Source of the DNA: Fontisphaera persica
GTDB taxonomy: Bacteria; Verrucomicrobiota; Verrucomicrobiia; Limisphaerales; Fontisphaeraceae
DNA length: 64,000 nt
Assembly (NCBI RefSeq): GCF_024832785.1
Contig: NZ_CP116615.1
Coordinates: forward strand, 2,480,001 to 2,544,000
Direction: 5' to 3'
Of this stretch, positions 15,034-18,351 are shown piece by piece. The first letter of the stretch is position 1, and each line of letters begins with the position of its first letter. The notes under the pieces are model-generated. The model made no database searches, was not told the origin of the DNA, and saw only the letters and a program-made list of their open reading frames with translations. The translations under genes were made by a program, and so were the position numbers.

Positions 15034-18000
15034 ATGACAAGCCGTGACATTCGCCAGTCGTTCCTCGACTTTTTCCGGTCGAAGCAGCACACCATCGTGC
15101 CTTCGTCCAGCCTCCTGCCGGACTCGCCCAACCTCCTCTTCACCAACGCCGGCATGAATCAATTTGTCCCCATCTTCCTGGGACAAATCCCCTGCCCCTA
15201 CCAACCCGGCCGCGCCGCCGATACTCAGAAATGCATCCGCGCCGGCGGCAAGCACAACGACCTTGAAGACGTGGGGCTGGATACCTACCACCACACCTTC
15301 TTTGAAATGCTCGGCAACTGGAGTTTCGGCGATTACTTCAAAAAAGAAGCCATCGAATGGGCTTGGGAACTCGTCGTCGGCCTCTGGAAATTTCCCCCCC
15401 AACGCCTCTACGCCACCGTTTATAAACCCGGCCCCGGGGAACCGGCCGAGTTTGACCAGGAAGCCTATGACCTCTGGGCCGCCATTTTCTCCCAGGCCGG
15501 CCTCGACCCCCACGTCCATATCCATTACGGCGGCAAAAAAGACAATTTCTGGATGATGGGCGAAACCGGCCCCTGCGGCCCCTGCTCCGAGCTGCACGTG
15601 GACCTCACCCCCGCCGGCGACACCCGCGGCGCCCTCGTGAACAAAGGCAGCGCCCAATGCATTGAAATCTGGAACCTCGTGTTCATGCAATTCAATGCCA
15701 ACCCCGACGGCTCCTTCTCCCCGCTCCCCGCCAAAAGCGTGGATACCGGCATGGGATTCGAGCGCGTGACCGGCATCATTCAGAATACCCGGGGTTTTAC
15801 GGACTTCAGCCGCATCATCTCCAATTACGAAACCGACATCTTCCGCCCGCTCTTTGACCGGCTCGAGGCGCTCAGCGGCAAAAAATATGGCGCCACCCTC
15901 CCCCGCCCCGATGCCGCCGGCAACCTCGTGCCCGCCACCGAACAGGAACGCGTGGACGTCGCCTTCCGCGTCATCGCCGACCACATCCGCACGCTGAGCT
16001 TTGCCATCGCCGATGGCATCCTCCCCGGCAACACGGACCGCCATTACGTCCTCCGCCGCATCCTCCGCCGCGCCGTGCGCTACGGGCGCTCCCTGGGCTT
16101 TCACGAGCCGTTCTTTTTCAAACTCGTGCCGGTCCTGGCCGAAACCATGGGCGATGTTTTCCCCGAAATCCGCGCCCGCCAGGCCCACGTGGAAGAAGTC
16201 ATCCGCCAGGAGGAGGAAGCCTTCAATCGCACCCTCGACCGCGGCATCGAACTCTTCAACCAATACGTGGAATCCGTCTCGGGGACCGCACGCGTCTCGC
16301 GTGCCGGTTCCGGCGTCCCGCCGGAACCCTCTCCCAAAAACATTCATTATTCCAAACGCAACCTTCCTCATTTTGAGCGGCCGTGGAGCAAATACATGGT
16401 CACGTTTTCAACGTATAACCACCGGGTACTGACTCCGGAGGAACGCGATAGGGTGTTGGACAGCTTGATCTTTGGGCATCGGGAAAAAAGGTACTTTCTC
16501 TATGCCGCTTGCGTCATGCCCGACCATGTCCACCTCCTCATTGAACCACAAATCAAACAAGAAGATGCCTCCGGGACTCCCGTCTTTTGGTCGTTAACGG
16601 AAATTTTGCATGGCATTAAATCATTTACCGCACACCAAATCAACCGCCTGCGCGGCGCTGACGGTCCGGTTTGGGAAAAGGAATCCTTTGACCGTTTGAT
16701 TCGTGGACAAGCCGATTTGGAGGAAAAATTTCATTACATTTGTCAAAACCCATGGAGAGCAAAGATTGTTTCTGAGTCAGAAGGTTACCCGTGGGTTTGG
16801 ACGAAACAAAATGAAAGGGATACACCTCGGCGAGACGCCGAGGTAAGCACGCGAGACGCGTGCGCTCCCCGAGACCCAACCGAGGCTCACCAGCCGCTGG
16901 TCATTTCGGGTGACTTCGCTTTCAAACTTTATGACACCTACGGTTTCCCGCTCGATTTGACCGAGCTCATGGCCCGCGAACGCGGCCTGAAAGTGGACGT
17001 GGCCGAATTCAACCGTCTGATGGAGGAACAACGTGAGCGCGCCCGCAAAGCCCAAAAACGCGAAATCATCGAGCTTTCCCAAATCGAAACCGACACCCCC
17101 ACCCGCTTTGTGGGTTTCGACACCCTTCAAACTCCCGCCCGCGTCCTCGAAGTCGTCCAAATCAAAGACAAAACCGCCGTCATCCTCGATGCCACCGCCT
17201 GCTACGCCGAAATGGGCGGCCAGGTCGGCGACACCGGCGAGCTGCGCGCCGGCGAGATTTGCTGGCGCATTGAGGACACCCAAAAATCAGGCGCCACCTG
17301 GCTGCATTATCTGTCCCTGTCCGACAATCCTCCCTCGCGCCTGCCCCAACCCGGCGAGCCTGTCCTGCTGCAAGTCGAGGCCCCCCGCCGCGCCAGCATT
17401 CAGCGCCATCACACCGTTACGCACCTGCTGCACTGGGCCATCCATGAAGTCGTCAGCCCCGAAGCCTCCCAAAAGGGCTCCTTTGTCGGCCCCGACAAAT
17501 TGACCTTCGACTTCAACTGCCCGCCCCTCACGCCCCAACAAGTGGCTGACGTCGAAAAACTGGTCAACGAGCGCATCCTCGAAAACGCCGGCGTAAGCTG
17601 GACCGAGGTCCCCTACGCGGAGGTCAAAGGCCGCAAAGACGTCATGCAATTCTTTGGCGACAAATACGGCGACACCGTGCGCGTCGTGCAAATCGGCGGC
17701 CACCCCGGCCGTCTGGACGGTTATTCCATGGAACTCTGCGGCGGCACGCACACCCGCGCCACCGGCGAAATCGGCCTTTTCCGCATCGTCGCCGAGACCG
17801 CCATCGCCGCCGGCGTGCGCCGCATCGAAGCCGTGGCCGGCCTGGAGTCCTACCGCCGCGCCTGGGACGAAGCGCGCCGCCTCCGGGCGCTGGCCGACAA
17901 ACTGAACACGCCCGTCGGCGAGCTGGAAAAACGCATTGAAAACCTGCTCCAGCAACAAAAGGAGCTGGAAAAACAATGGCGCGCCCTCCAGCAAAAACAG

Positions 18001-18351
18001 GCCGGCGAAATGGCCCGCAGCCTCACCACCAAAGCCCGCACCATCAACCAGGTGCCTGTCATCATTGAACGCGTGGACGCCGATGCCGACACTCTGCAGG
18101 CCATGGTCAACGAACTCAAAGGCTGCTTCCAGGGTGTCGTGGTCCTCGGTGGCGCCGCCCAAAACGCCGTCACCCTCATGGCCACCGTTTCCCCCGCCTA
18201 CACCCAGCGCGTGCAAGCCGGCAAAATCCTCCAGCAAATCGCCCCCATCACCGGCGGCAAGGGCGGCGGCAAGCCCGATTTCGCCCGCGGCGGCGGCAAG
18301 GAGGTCAGCCGCCTGGATGAAGCCCTCGCCAAGGCGGCCACCCTCATCTAA
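15034..18351 (+). CDS. alaS: Alanyl-tRNA synthetase with an in-frame RAYT transposase insertion
   Basis: One open frame of 1105 residues. Residues 1-414 are normal AlaRS: MTSRDIRQSFLDFF, the motif TNAGMNQFVP, GETGPCGPCSELH and ILPGNTDRHYVLRRILRRAV. Residues 615-1105 resume normally with ISGDFAFKLYDTYGFPLDL, the editing-domain H-T-V-T-H and CGGTHTRATGEIG, and a C-terminal Gly-rich KGGGKPDFARGGGKE. Residues 415-614 (exactly 200 codons) are a REP-flanked RAYT transposase; without them the protein would be 905 residues, near the family norm of about 880. The site is the loop before the ISGDFAFKLYDTYG element, variable in length across AlaRSs. No stop or frameshift is visible, so the synthetase is presumably functional, either as a fusion or after processing. 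The ATG at 15034 begins the conserved part; the upstream extension is shadow. Confidence 0.95.
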   Translation: MTSRDIRQSFLDFFRSKQHTIVPSSSLLPDSPNLLFTNAGMNQFVPIFLGQIPCPYQPGRAADTQKCIRAGGKHNDLEDVGLDTYHHTFFEMLGNWSFGDYFKKEAIEWAWELVVGLWKFPPQRLYATVYKPGPGEPAEFDQEAYDLWAAIFSQAGLDPHVHIHYGGKKDNFWMMGETGPCGPCSELHVDLTPAGDTRGALVNKGSAQCIEIWNLVFMQFNANPDGSFSPLPAKSVDTGMGFERVTGIIQNTRGFTDFSRIISNYETDIFRPLFDRLEALSGKKYGATLPRPDAAGNLVPATEQERVDVAFRVIADHIRTLSFAIADGILPGNTDRHYVLRRILRRAVRYGRSLGFHEPFFFKLVPVLAETMGDVFPEIRARQAHVEEVIRQEEEAFNRTLDRGIELFNQYVESVSGTARVSRAGSGVPPEPSPKNIHYSKRNLPHFERPWSKYMVTFSTYNHRVLTPEERDRVLDSLIFGHREKRYFLYAACVMPDHVHLLIEPQIKQEDASGTPVFWSLTEILHGIKSFTAHQINRLRGADGPVWEKESFDRLIRGQADLEEKFHYICQNPWRAKIVSESEGYPWVWTKQNERDTPRRDAEVSTRDACAPRDPTEAHQPLVISGDFAFKLYDTYGFPLDLTELMARERGLKVDVAEFNRLMEEQRERARKAQKREIIELSQIETDTPTRFVGFDTLQTPARVLEVVQIKDKTAVILDATACYAEMGGQVGDTGELRAGEICWRIEDTQKSGATWLHYLSLSDNPPSRLPQPGEPVLLQVEAPRRASIQRHHTVTHLLHWAIHEVVSPEASQKGSFVGPDKLTFDFNCPPLTPQQVADVEKLVNERILENAGVSWTEVPYAEVKGRKDVMQFFGDKYGDTVRVVQIGGHPGRLDGYSMELCGGTHTRATGEIGLFRIVAETAIAAGVRRIEAVAGLESYRRAWDEARRLRALADKLNTPVGELEKRIENLLQQQKELEKQWRALQQKQAGEMARSLTTKARTINQVPVIIERVDADADTLQAMVNELKGCFQGVVVLGGAAQNAVTLMATVSPAYTQRVQAGKILQQIAPITGGKGGGKPDFARGGGKEVSRLDEALAKAATLI
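16276..16304. repeat. Left terminal inverted repeat with outer REP palindrome
   Basis: It contains the palindrome GCACGCGTCTCGCGTGC at 16288-16304 (7-bp stem, TCT loop) preceded by GTCTCGGGGACC. Its reverse complement occurs at 16847-16875 with a single mismatch (C at 16286). It is translated within alaS as part of V-S-G-T-A-R-V-S-R-A. Confidence 0.92.
16306..16328. repeat. Left inner REP hairpin
   Basis: A 9-bp perfect stem GGTTCCGGC/GCCGGAACC with loop GTCCC. Its core CGGCGTCCCGCCG matches the right inner hairpin (read on the other strand) at 12 of 13 positions, while the outer stem bases differ in a paired, compensatory way. Confidence 0.88.
16337..16812 (+). other. RAYT (REP-associated tyrosine transposase) domain within AlaRS
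   Basis: About 158 residues of Y1_Tnp/RAYT sequence in the alaS frame. Recognisable parts are YMVTFSTYNHRVLTPEERD, YAACVMPDHVHLLIEP with the metal-binding H-x-H (16525-16533; fusion residues 498 and 500), LTEILHGIKSFTAHQINR, GPVWEKESFDRLIR, and FHYICQNPWRAKIV with the catalytic Tyr (codon 16735, residue 568), ending EGYPWVW. Family enzymes cut and join single-stranded DNA at REP hairpins. All motif residues are intact. There is no stop of its own: the frame runs out through the right REP into AlaRS. An in-frame ATG at 16396 could allow internal initiation, but no ribosome site is obvious. Confidence 0.9.
16825..16843. repeat. Right inner REP hairpin
   Basis: CCTCGGCGAGACGCCGAGG forms an 8-bp perfect stem with AGA loop. 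It is the right-end counterpart of the hairpin at 16306-16328 and is separated from the outer palindrome by TAA (16844-16846), which is out of frame for alaS. Confidence 0.9.
16847..16875. repeat. Right terminal inverted repeat with outer REP palindrome
   Basis: GCACGCGAGACGCGTGC (16847-16863) is the exact reverse complement of the left outer palindrome, followed by GCTCCCCGAGAC, which pairs with the left end except at one base. It is translated within alaS as S-T-R-D-A-C-A-P-R-D. Confidence 0.92.

Follow-up and report, generated by a model that had tools for sequence, protein, structure and literature searches.

The 64,000-nucleotide stretch of the Fontisphaera persica chromosome analyzed here (contig NZ_CP116615.1, positions 2,480,001 to 2,544,000; the window) contains alaS, the gene for alanyl-tRNA synthetase (AlaRS), and within the alaS reading frame lies a REP-associated tyrosine transposase (RAYT) between two repetitive extragenic palindromes (REPs). 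The gene is a single open frame of 1105 amino acids with no stop across this guest (Table 1). A preliminary description, made from the letters alone, had claimed a complete RAYT in frame inside alaS, which the open frame and two transposase profiles bore out. NF047646 (REP_Tyr_transpos) matched residues 446 to 587 of the whole AlaRS at 76.1 bits, under its cut-off of 80, and the insert alone at 80.3 bits, over that cut-off; Y1_Tnp scored over its cut-off both in the whole protein and in the insert alone. The guest has an HUH motif (HVH) and a single catalytic tyrosine. The AlaRS halves had been described as keeping all family motifs; TIGR00344 scored 836.6 (cut-off 457), its match being divided into two stretches some 200 residues apart, and the Pfam tRNA-synt_2c match splits at profile position 379/381. 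The size given for the insert, about 600 bp or 200 codons, was correct; its limits had been put at residues 415 to 614, of which the start stood and the end did not, since the insert is better drawn at about 415 to 622, with the folded guest at about 449 to 595. The guest sits before the motif FAFKLYDTYG in a loop that varies among relatives, which agrees with the tolerant loop that had been proposed there.

Table 1. Features of alaS and its embedded guest (coordinates in the window)
Feature	Position	Strand	Basis
alaS, alanyl-tRNA synthetase host gene, 1105 codons, sole copy found in genome	15034..18351	+	ORF, profiles
Host N-part, catalytic and tRNA-recognition part	15034..16276	+	Pfam profile positions 1-379
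Left REP end, TCTCGGGGACC-GCACGCGTCTCGCGTGC, translated in frame within left linker	16277..16304	+	Inverted repeat of 28 nt, 1 mismatch; pattern sites
Left REP second hairpin and linker	16305..16347	+	Sequence; residues 418-448 pLDDT <50
Guest RAYT domain (YSKRNLPHFE ... WVWT), HVH in PDHVH, Tyr of FHYICQNP	16348..16803	+	NF047646, Y1_Tnp, AlphaFold lobe, 4er8_A
Right linker and right REP second hairpin (CTCGGCGAGACGCCGAG)	16804..16846	+	Sequence; residues 595-620 pLDDT <50
Right REP end, inverted, TCTCGGGGAGC-GCACGCGTCTCGCGTGC	16847..16874	-	Inverted repeat, pattern sites
Host C-part: remaining AlaRS core from Pfam profile 381, editing domain (tRNA_SAD), DHHA1	16875..18351	+	Pfam

The inverted REP hairpins that had been reported around the guest were confirmed. 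The two ends, TCTCGGGGA[C/G]CGCACGCGTCTCGCGTGC, form a 28-nt inverted repeat with one mismatch, and inward of each lies a second hairpin. Both REPs fall inside the open host frame and are read in frame, as in intragenic REPs. The head before the palindrome is GGAG in the right REP and GGAC in the left, not the GT(A/G)G of RAYT/TnpAREP systems. CT stands directly outside GGGG at both ends, which is compatible with, though short of proof for, TnpAREP cleavage chemistry; TnpAREP proteins are described, in the available part of PMC8266576, as cutting REP in single-stranded form at CT, and in one case at CA as well, with the GTAG motif involved in the choice. Allowing up to three mismatches, the genome holds 34 REP sites. 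Two flank the guest, one (at 3513903) has one mismatch, and the 31 with two or three mismatches are GTAG-type; two of these 31 flank another RAYT, at 2809409, so that between 2809018 and 2809856 a RAYT in a 221-aa frame lies between two GTAG-type REPs. The frames around the site at 3513903 resemble YD-repeat proteins by eye, and the REP peptide there is in a different frame.

The F. persica genome is one contig of 4,726,914 bp with one alaS, detected as two pieces of one frame. The second intact alaS that the preliminary description had said would speak against it was not found when the whole genome was searched. The empty site it had suggested looking for is present in a congener, whose alaS has two AlaRS halves 94.8% and 91.3% identical to those of the window and lacks the insert; the BLAST ends leave window residues 423 to 623 opposite a single residue. 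Neither the order-wide scan with the clade profile described below nor the NF047646 scan matched a RAYT in this congener. GC content at third codon positions is 0.545 in the insert, lower than in either part of the host (0.80 and 0.78). Because the congener's site is empty and the composition has not ameliorated, the guest is most likely a fairly late arrival in this lineage, or else it was lost in the congener.

We modeled the whole enzyme with AlphaFold, using 26 guest-bearing sequences. In the guest (about 449 to 595), the block means of the predicted local distance difference test (pLDDT) were mostly 75 to 94, with one block at 60, and the linkers at 418 to 448 and 595 to 620 fell below 50; the mean of the whole model was 72. 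Foldseek with the whole model returned AlaRS structures and 4er8_A, a REP-bound TnpAREP. Modeled alone, the guest reached a pLDDT of 87.4 and a predicted template modeling score (pTM) of 0.81, and its best Protein Data Bank match was again 4er8_A (E 3.2e-7, template modeling scores 0.63/0.62), as expected for a TnpAREP fold. The guest is predicted to be a folded nuclease lobe on two flexible REP-encoded tethers, placed at a loop of varying length in empty relatives; a separate lobe with flexible linkers is thus what came of the structure prediction that had been suggested as a check.

A guest that is removed from the protein or transcript in the manner of an intein or intron would leave an ordinary mature enzyme, and placement in conserved indispensable proteins is indeed like that of inteins. 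We nevertheless consider such processing very unlikely. Pfam at E 0.001 gives only AlaRS parts and Y1_Tnp, the ends are REP hairpins and not known splice elements, and exact restoration of AlaRS would be needless because homologous loops differ in length. An intein was rejected, as neither Pfam nor NCBIfam gave a Hint splicing domain at E 0.001, and so was a self-splicing intron or IStron, as Rfam gave no match up to E 1 in positions 16000 to 17200.

An alaS match, in some cases a partial one, was obtained in 38 of the 39 relatives searched, and by profile 8 of these 38 carry a RAYT in alaS. The main AlaRS loop, which is that of the window, is occupied in G007, G027, G029, and G034, and a second loop, which precedes it by about 115 residues in the reference, is occupied in G004, G012, G015, and G023. 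A homologous domain other than a transposase at this site had been named as a result that would count against the preliminary description; these eight relatives carry the same kind of transposase at this loop or the second one, and a few others, G002 and G026 among them, carry different inserts. Those of G002 and G026 are in-frame inserts of about 85 to 115 aa at the main loop (L042 and L043) with a common FKFFGREPS motif, and neither matched the RAYT profile at E 10. Because some relatives carry such non-RAYT inserts, the AlaRS loop accepts more than one kind of guest. At the second loop of G005 and G011 (L029 and L019) there are peptides of 20 to 24 aa, REP-like by eye and without a RAYT, which are perhaps scars or REP-only insertions.

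A clade profile was then built from seven alaS guests. Over 320 genomes of the order (E up to 1e-30, up to 12 candidates per genome scored), it gave 41 clade matches in 33 genomes, all 41 in frames of 555 to 1540 aa. The hosts were AlaRS in 31 cases (21 in the main loop and 10 in the second), ThrRS in 5, and PriA in 5, and both AlaRS loops were occupied in G067, G139, and G140. A phylum sample of 387 genomes, with up to 10 candidates per genome scored, gave eight matches in eight genomes, all in frames of 730 to 1316 aa; one was the window's own, and the other seven were in AlaRS (five) and RecG (two). The third source was a species-level collection, in which a scan gave 240 stretches and 216 relatives; of the 216, the best 80 were taken, and 79 loci were kept. 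These lie in AlaRS (37), RecG (20), MetH (12), ThrRS (4), PriA (1), CarB (1), and short frames (4), so that 75 of the 79 are inside six host families. For RecG, MetH, ThrRS, and CarB, representatives were identified with profiles, and the other members of each group were named by BLAST. The loci are titled Verrucomicrobiota or subgroups of it, apart from one Kiritimatiellaeota metagenome-assembled genome and one "bacterium." In the MetH-borne guest L164, a stop closely follows the right REP peptide, so that the frame of the host seems interrupted, and the contig ends shortly after. The profile search that had been proposed for further in-frame RAYT insertions therefore found many, in several hosts, and the element is not the isolated oddity it had been taken for but belongs to a clade in which almost every sampled member is embedded in frame.

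Guests of this kind might be products of faulty assembly or annotation. They do show an excess near contig ends: 7 of 41 are within 200 nt (1.4 expected; P about 0.0003) and 9 of 41 within 600 nt (4.1 expected; P 0.013), at thresholds picked after the data had been seen. This excess is perhaps due to repeats or to sampled populations in which occupied and empty alleles coexist. Given that the window genome is one contig and that many separate assemblies share this anatomy, the two halves of the host running on in one frame, we give an artefact practically no credence.

For comparison with RAYTs outside the clade, NF047646 was run over 97 genomes of the order. Among the 150 best matches listed, 29 are in frames of at least 500 aa; by place, 20 of these belong to this clade and 9 do not. 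Short frames are the rule among the listed non-clade RAYTs, and none was seen inside the clade in these genomes. What co-occurs with the nine non-clade RAYTs is PriA, ClpB, a DinG-type helicase, a UDPGP-family protein, a DnaE-like part, and an Eco57I-type or other N6 methylase (loci L142, L143, L144, L145, L148, and L149: UDPGP-family, PriA, DinG-type helicase, Eco57I-type methylase, DnaE-like part, ClpB), and in L146 and L147 no other domain was found. Host sequence lies on both sides of the RAYT in the PriA, ClpB, and DinG-type helicase cases.

Next, we examined the ends of the guests across the clade, keeping 89 of 93 clade rows (four with short flanks were dropped), 85 of them embedded. 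GGGGAGC is present in at least one flank of 59 of the 85 embedded elements and in both flanks of 39. An inverted stretch of at least 12 nt, and up to 55 nt, is common to both flanks in 72 of the 85; with the short-frame rows included, the count is 75 of 89, versus 0 of 89 in a shuffled-flank control. The GGGGAGC-type end is similar to GGGGWSAS, the motif reported for terminal inverted repeat-associated tyrosine transposases, and is one letter of eight off. Because the head is not GT(A/G)G and resembles GGGGWSAS, we would file the guest clade as RAYT-like only in a wide sense.

The history of guests and hosts was traced on a tree of 100 RAYTs, made from unique sequences scoring at least 100 bits over at least 125 profile positions together with eight chosen outgroup loci, of which seven gave a tree row and L051 did not. 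Short-frame RAYTs were labeled by frame length; the clpB and dinG matches of some of them had come from unmasked RAYT in those references. The clade's 93 rows, of which 89 are embedded and 4 lie in short frames, split from the seven other RAYTs at a branch with support 100/99. Host-and-site labels change 18 times on the tree versus 59.7 times when shuffled, and the ThrRS guests form one side of a 100/98 branch. A single origin was rejected by the approximately unbiased test for the 35 main-loop AlaRS guests (p 1.7e-6) and for those of the two AlaRS loops combined (p 1.6e-4); host and site had defined the groups before the tree, and the test was run after the tree had been seen. Since a single main-loop AlaRS clade is rejected, the same loops were entered more than once. 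Pairwise divergence takes three forms. The recG pair L216/L229 co-diverged, with nonsynonymous (dN) and synonymous (dS) divergences of 0.036 and 0.58 in the guest and 0.038 and 0.49 in the host; recG L194/L202 have close hosts and very different guests (dN 0.057 and 0.36). By dS, the guest is younger than the host in priA L108/L109 (0.28 versus 0.93) and in metH L217/L225 (0.47 versus 1.20). Four of the groups (AlaRS main loop, RecG, MetH first site, and PriA) show a correlation of dN between guest and host (rho 0.47 to 0.77). Some guests have diverged together with their hosts, and others arrived at the same loop separately.

The predicted active site is conserved. The first histidine is kept in 87 of 89 embedded guests, and the second histidine and the tyrosine are kept in all 89. 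The dN/dS ratio is 0.02 to 0.18 in the 24 closest embedded same-site pairs and 0.04 to 0.18 in the 15 of these with dS below 1.5. These ratios, although only a rough measure because many dS values are saturated, point to embedded guests being under purifying selection. In the short-frame clade row L192 (one of four), the catalytic tyrosine is replaced by serine, as might be expected of a free copy under weaker constraint. Starts of translation were counted in 82 embedded guests and 4 short-frame rows, the others lacking the motif LPHFE or 25 upstream codons; an ATG in frame within 25 codons before LPHFE occurs in 6 of the 82. The window guest has no possible start before residue 455, which already belongs to the first strand of the fold, and it likely relies on the host start; for the clade such reliance is plausible.

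Two rival explanations were weighed. In the first, a RAYT lands by chance in a tolerant loop, in frame by luck, and decays harmlessly, and survivor bias mimics the pattern. The loop in AlaRS differs in length among relatives and holds other in-frame inserts in some of them, the site in the congener is empty, and a survival filter alone would give same-frame insertions without adaptation. Such a filter explains the common frame and not the conserved active site and ends: the catalytic residues are kept in 87 to 89 of 89 guests with closest-pair dN/dS of 0.02 to 0.18, paired REP ends are kept in 72 of 85, and the clade matches are all in long frames (41 of 41 and 8 of 8) when listed non-clade RAYTs mostly are not. 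We regard this explanation as unlikely. To the same degree we doubt the second, in which the HUH lobe has been domesticated and serves its host, for example as a single-stranded DNA- or RNA-binding module of synthetases and helicases. Most hosts do act on nucleic acids (AlaRS, ThrRS, PriA, and RecG), purifying selection is strong, and guests persist at one site over large distances, as in the AlaRS of five Opitutia loci. A host function fits poorly with MetH and CarB being hosts as well, with the patchy spread (33 of 320 genomes of the order and 8 of 387 in the phylum sample), with mobile ends that are mostly kept, and with several independent entries and replacements at one site.

We therefore favor another reading and consider it probable that this is a RAYT clade specialized as an unspliced in-frame passenger of indispensable proteins. 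Several observations weigh against it. Embedding is not wholly clade-specific, because the nine listed non-clade RAYTs are also in long frames, and 4 of the 93 clade rows are in short frames, whose surroundings did not match any of nine host references. In G004 (L032/L175), the AlaRS N-part and the RAYT plus C-part are in different frames with the break beside the guest, which is either an assembly error or a split gene. Tyrosine replaces the first HUH histidine in the alaS guest L196 and the metH guest L177, which may be inactive. When all 57 same-site pairs whose guests have dS below 1.5 are taken, dN/dS spans 0.04 to 0.44, and, with many dS values saturated, the constraint may partly reflect time spent elsewhere. 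When ATG, GTG, and TTG are all counted, a possible start lies near LPHFE in 43 of 82 guests, with a Shine-Dalgarno-like site in 2; the absence of a start codon was thus too weak to be a sharp clade marker, and we do not use it as proof. By a wider measure, ATG is present in 35 of 87 guests versus 17 of 29 generic RAYTs; the corresponding counts for a start that has a Shine-Dalgarno-like site are 3 of 87 and 9 of 29. Guest and host divergences are uncorrelated in the AlaRS second loop (rho 0.02) and in ThrRS (rho -0.24), and the six pairs at the second MetH site give no clear answer either way. The pTM of the whole chimera is 0.42, with the synthetase N terminus poorly modeled. Finally, at up to three mismatches, no amplified family of the guest's GGAG-type REP was found in the F. 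persica genome.

With these points weighed, the mechanism we propose for the passenger clade begins with a REPtron (inverted REPs around a RAYT) adapted to in-frame life within host proteins. REP ends, RAYT, and host form one stop-free frame, and the guest is in a variable loop or an interdomain linker. The product would be an unspliced fusion, with the HUH nuclease forming its own lobe and two flexible REP-encoded linkers tethering it to the host. The host enzyme would still work, because it is the only copy; the guest would be expressed, because the host must be; and loss of the guest would be rare, because most deletions would break the host. The nuclease could still process the REP hairpins as single-stranded DNA, which would allow occasional re-insertion at the same permissive loops. 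We infer the guest's mobility and the fusion protein product. Protection of the guest from loss by embedding is consistent with our results; the shielding by an essential host that the preliminary description had imagined fits the purifying selection and the conserved catalytic residues, which fall short of proving it. Whether all this amounts to a new mobile-DNA lifestyle we hold to be somewhat more doubtful than probable. In such a lifestyle, an HUH clade would live as an unspliced host domain, use the host start, be protected from deletion, and home between alleles and among a few permissive loops (AlaRS, ThrRS, RecG, PriA, MetH, and CarB), intein-like without splicing.

RAYTs have been described as vertically inherited, single-copy transposases, and the persistence of REPIN populations with them has been posed as a question (PMC8049555, as far as its text was available). 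A clade built into indispensable enzymes would be a testable answer on persistence, in that deletion is costly and expression guaranteed. The same nuclease family was classified in a survey of the TnpAY1 superfamily, which, according to the accessible portion of PMC6006769, discarded from each subclass a few proteins of unexpected length as gene fusions or annotation errors; embedded guests could explain some of the proteins set aside there. No earlier report of a RAYT inside a host gene or protein was found in literature coverage that left out preprints and most subscription papers. Our results suggest that a nuclease predicted to be catalytically intact can ride as a bead within a tRNA synthetase or replication-restart helicase, and a passenger clade of this kind would broaden what counts as a mobile element.

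Inteins and homing endonucleases are nuclease genes kept in conserved genes, and they recur at the same sites. The guests described here differ from inteins in that no splicing domain was found and in that they are HUH transposases with their own REP ends. Homing elements copy into empty alleles at the same site; the repeated entries at one loop and guest-younger pairs such as priA L108/L109 might reflect such copying, though they fall short of showing it. The systems compared included an unorthodox yeast homing family (PMC7282813, in the part available). Palindromic in-frame insertions in protein genes are also known from Rickettsia, whose RPE elements are palindromic repeats with no RAYT reported in the accessible text of PMC3733652. 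The same text describes intragenic REPs, which occur in Opitutus terrae and, in several species, within repair genes and tRNA synthetases. They are like the present case in being in-frame REPs in such genes, the richest GTAG case being in the same phylum, and unlike it in that they are REP-encoded stretches of 20 to 82 residues, with no transposase gene inside a host gene described in that portion. Closest are the RAYT/TnpAREP REPtrons (PMC2817692 and PMC8266576, from the parts available), which have the HUH and tyrosine core, flanking inverted REPs, and a four-base head before the stem, and whose 4er8_A is nearest in fold to the window guest. As described there, REPtrons are genes between two inverted REPs with a GTAG or GTGG head, whereas the guest in alaS is continuous in frame with another protein, has the head GGAG (GGAC at the left), and belongs to a clade in which an ATG just upstream is rare.

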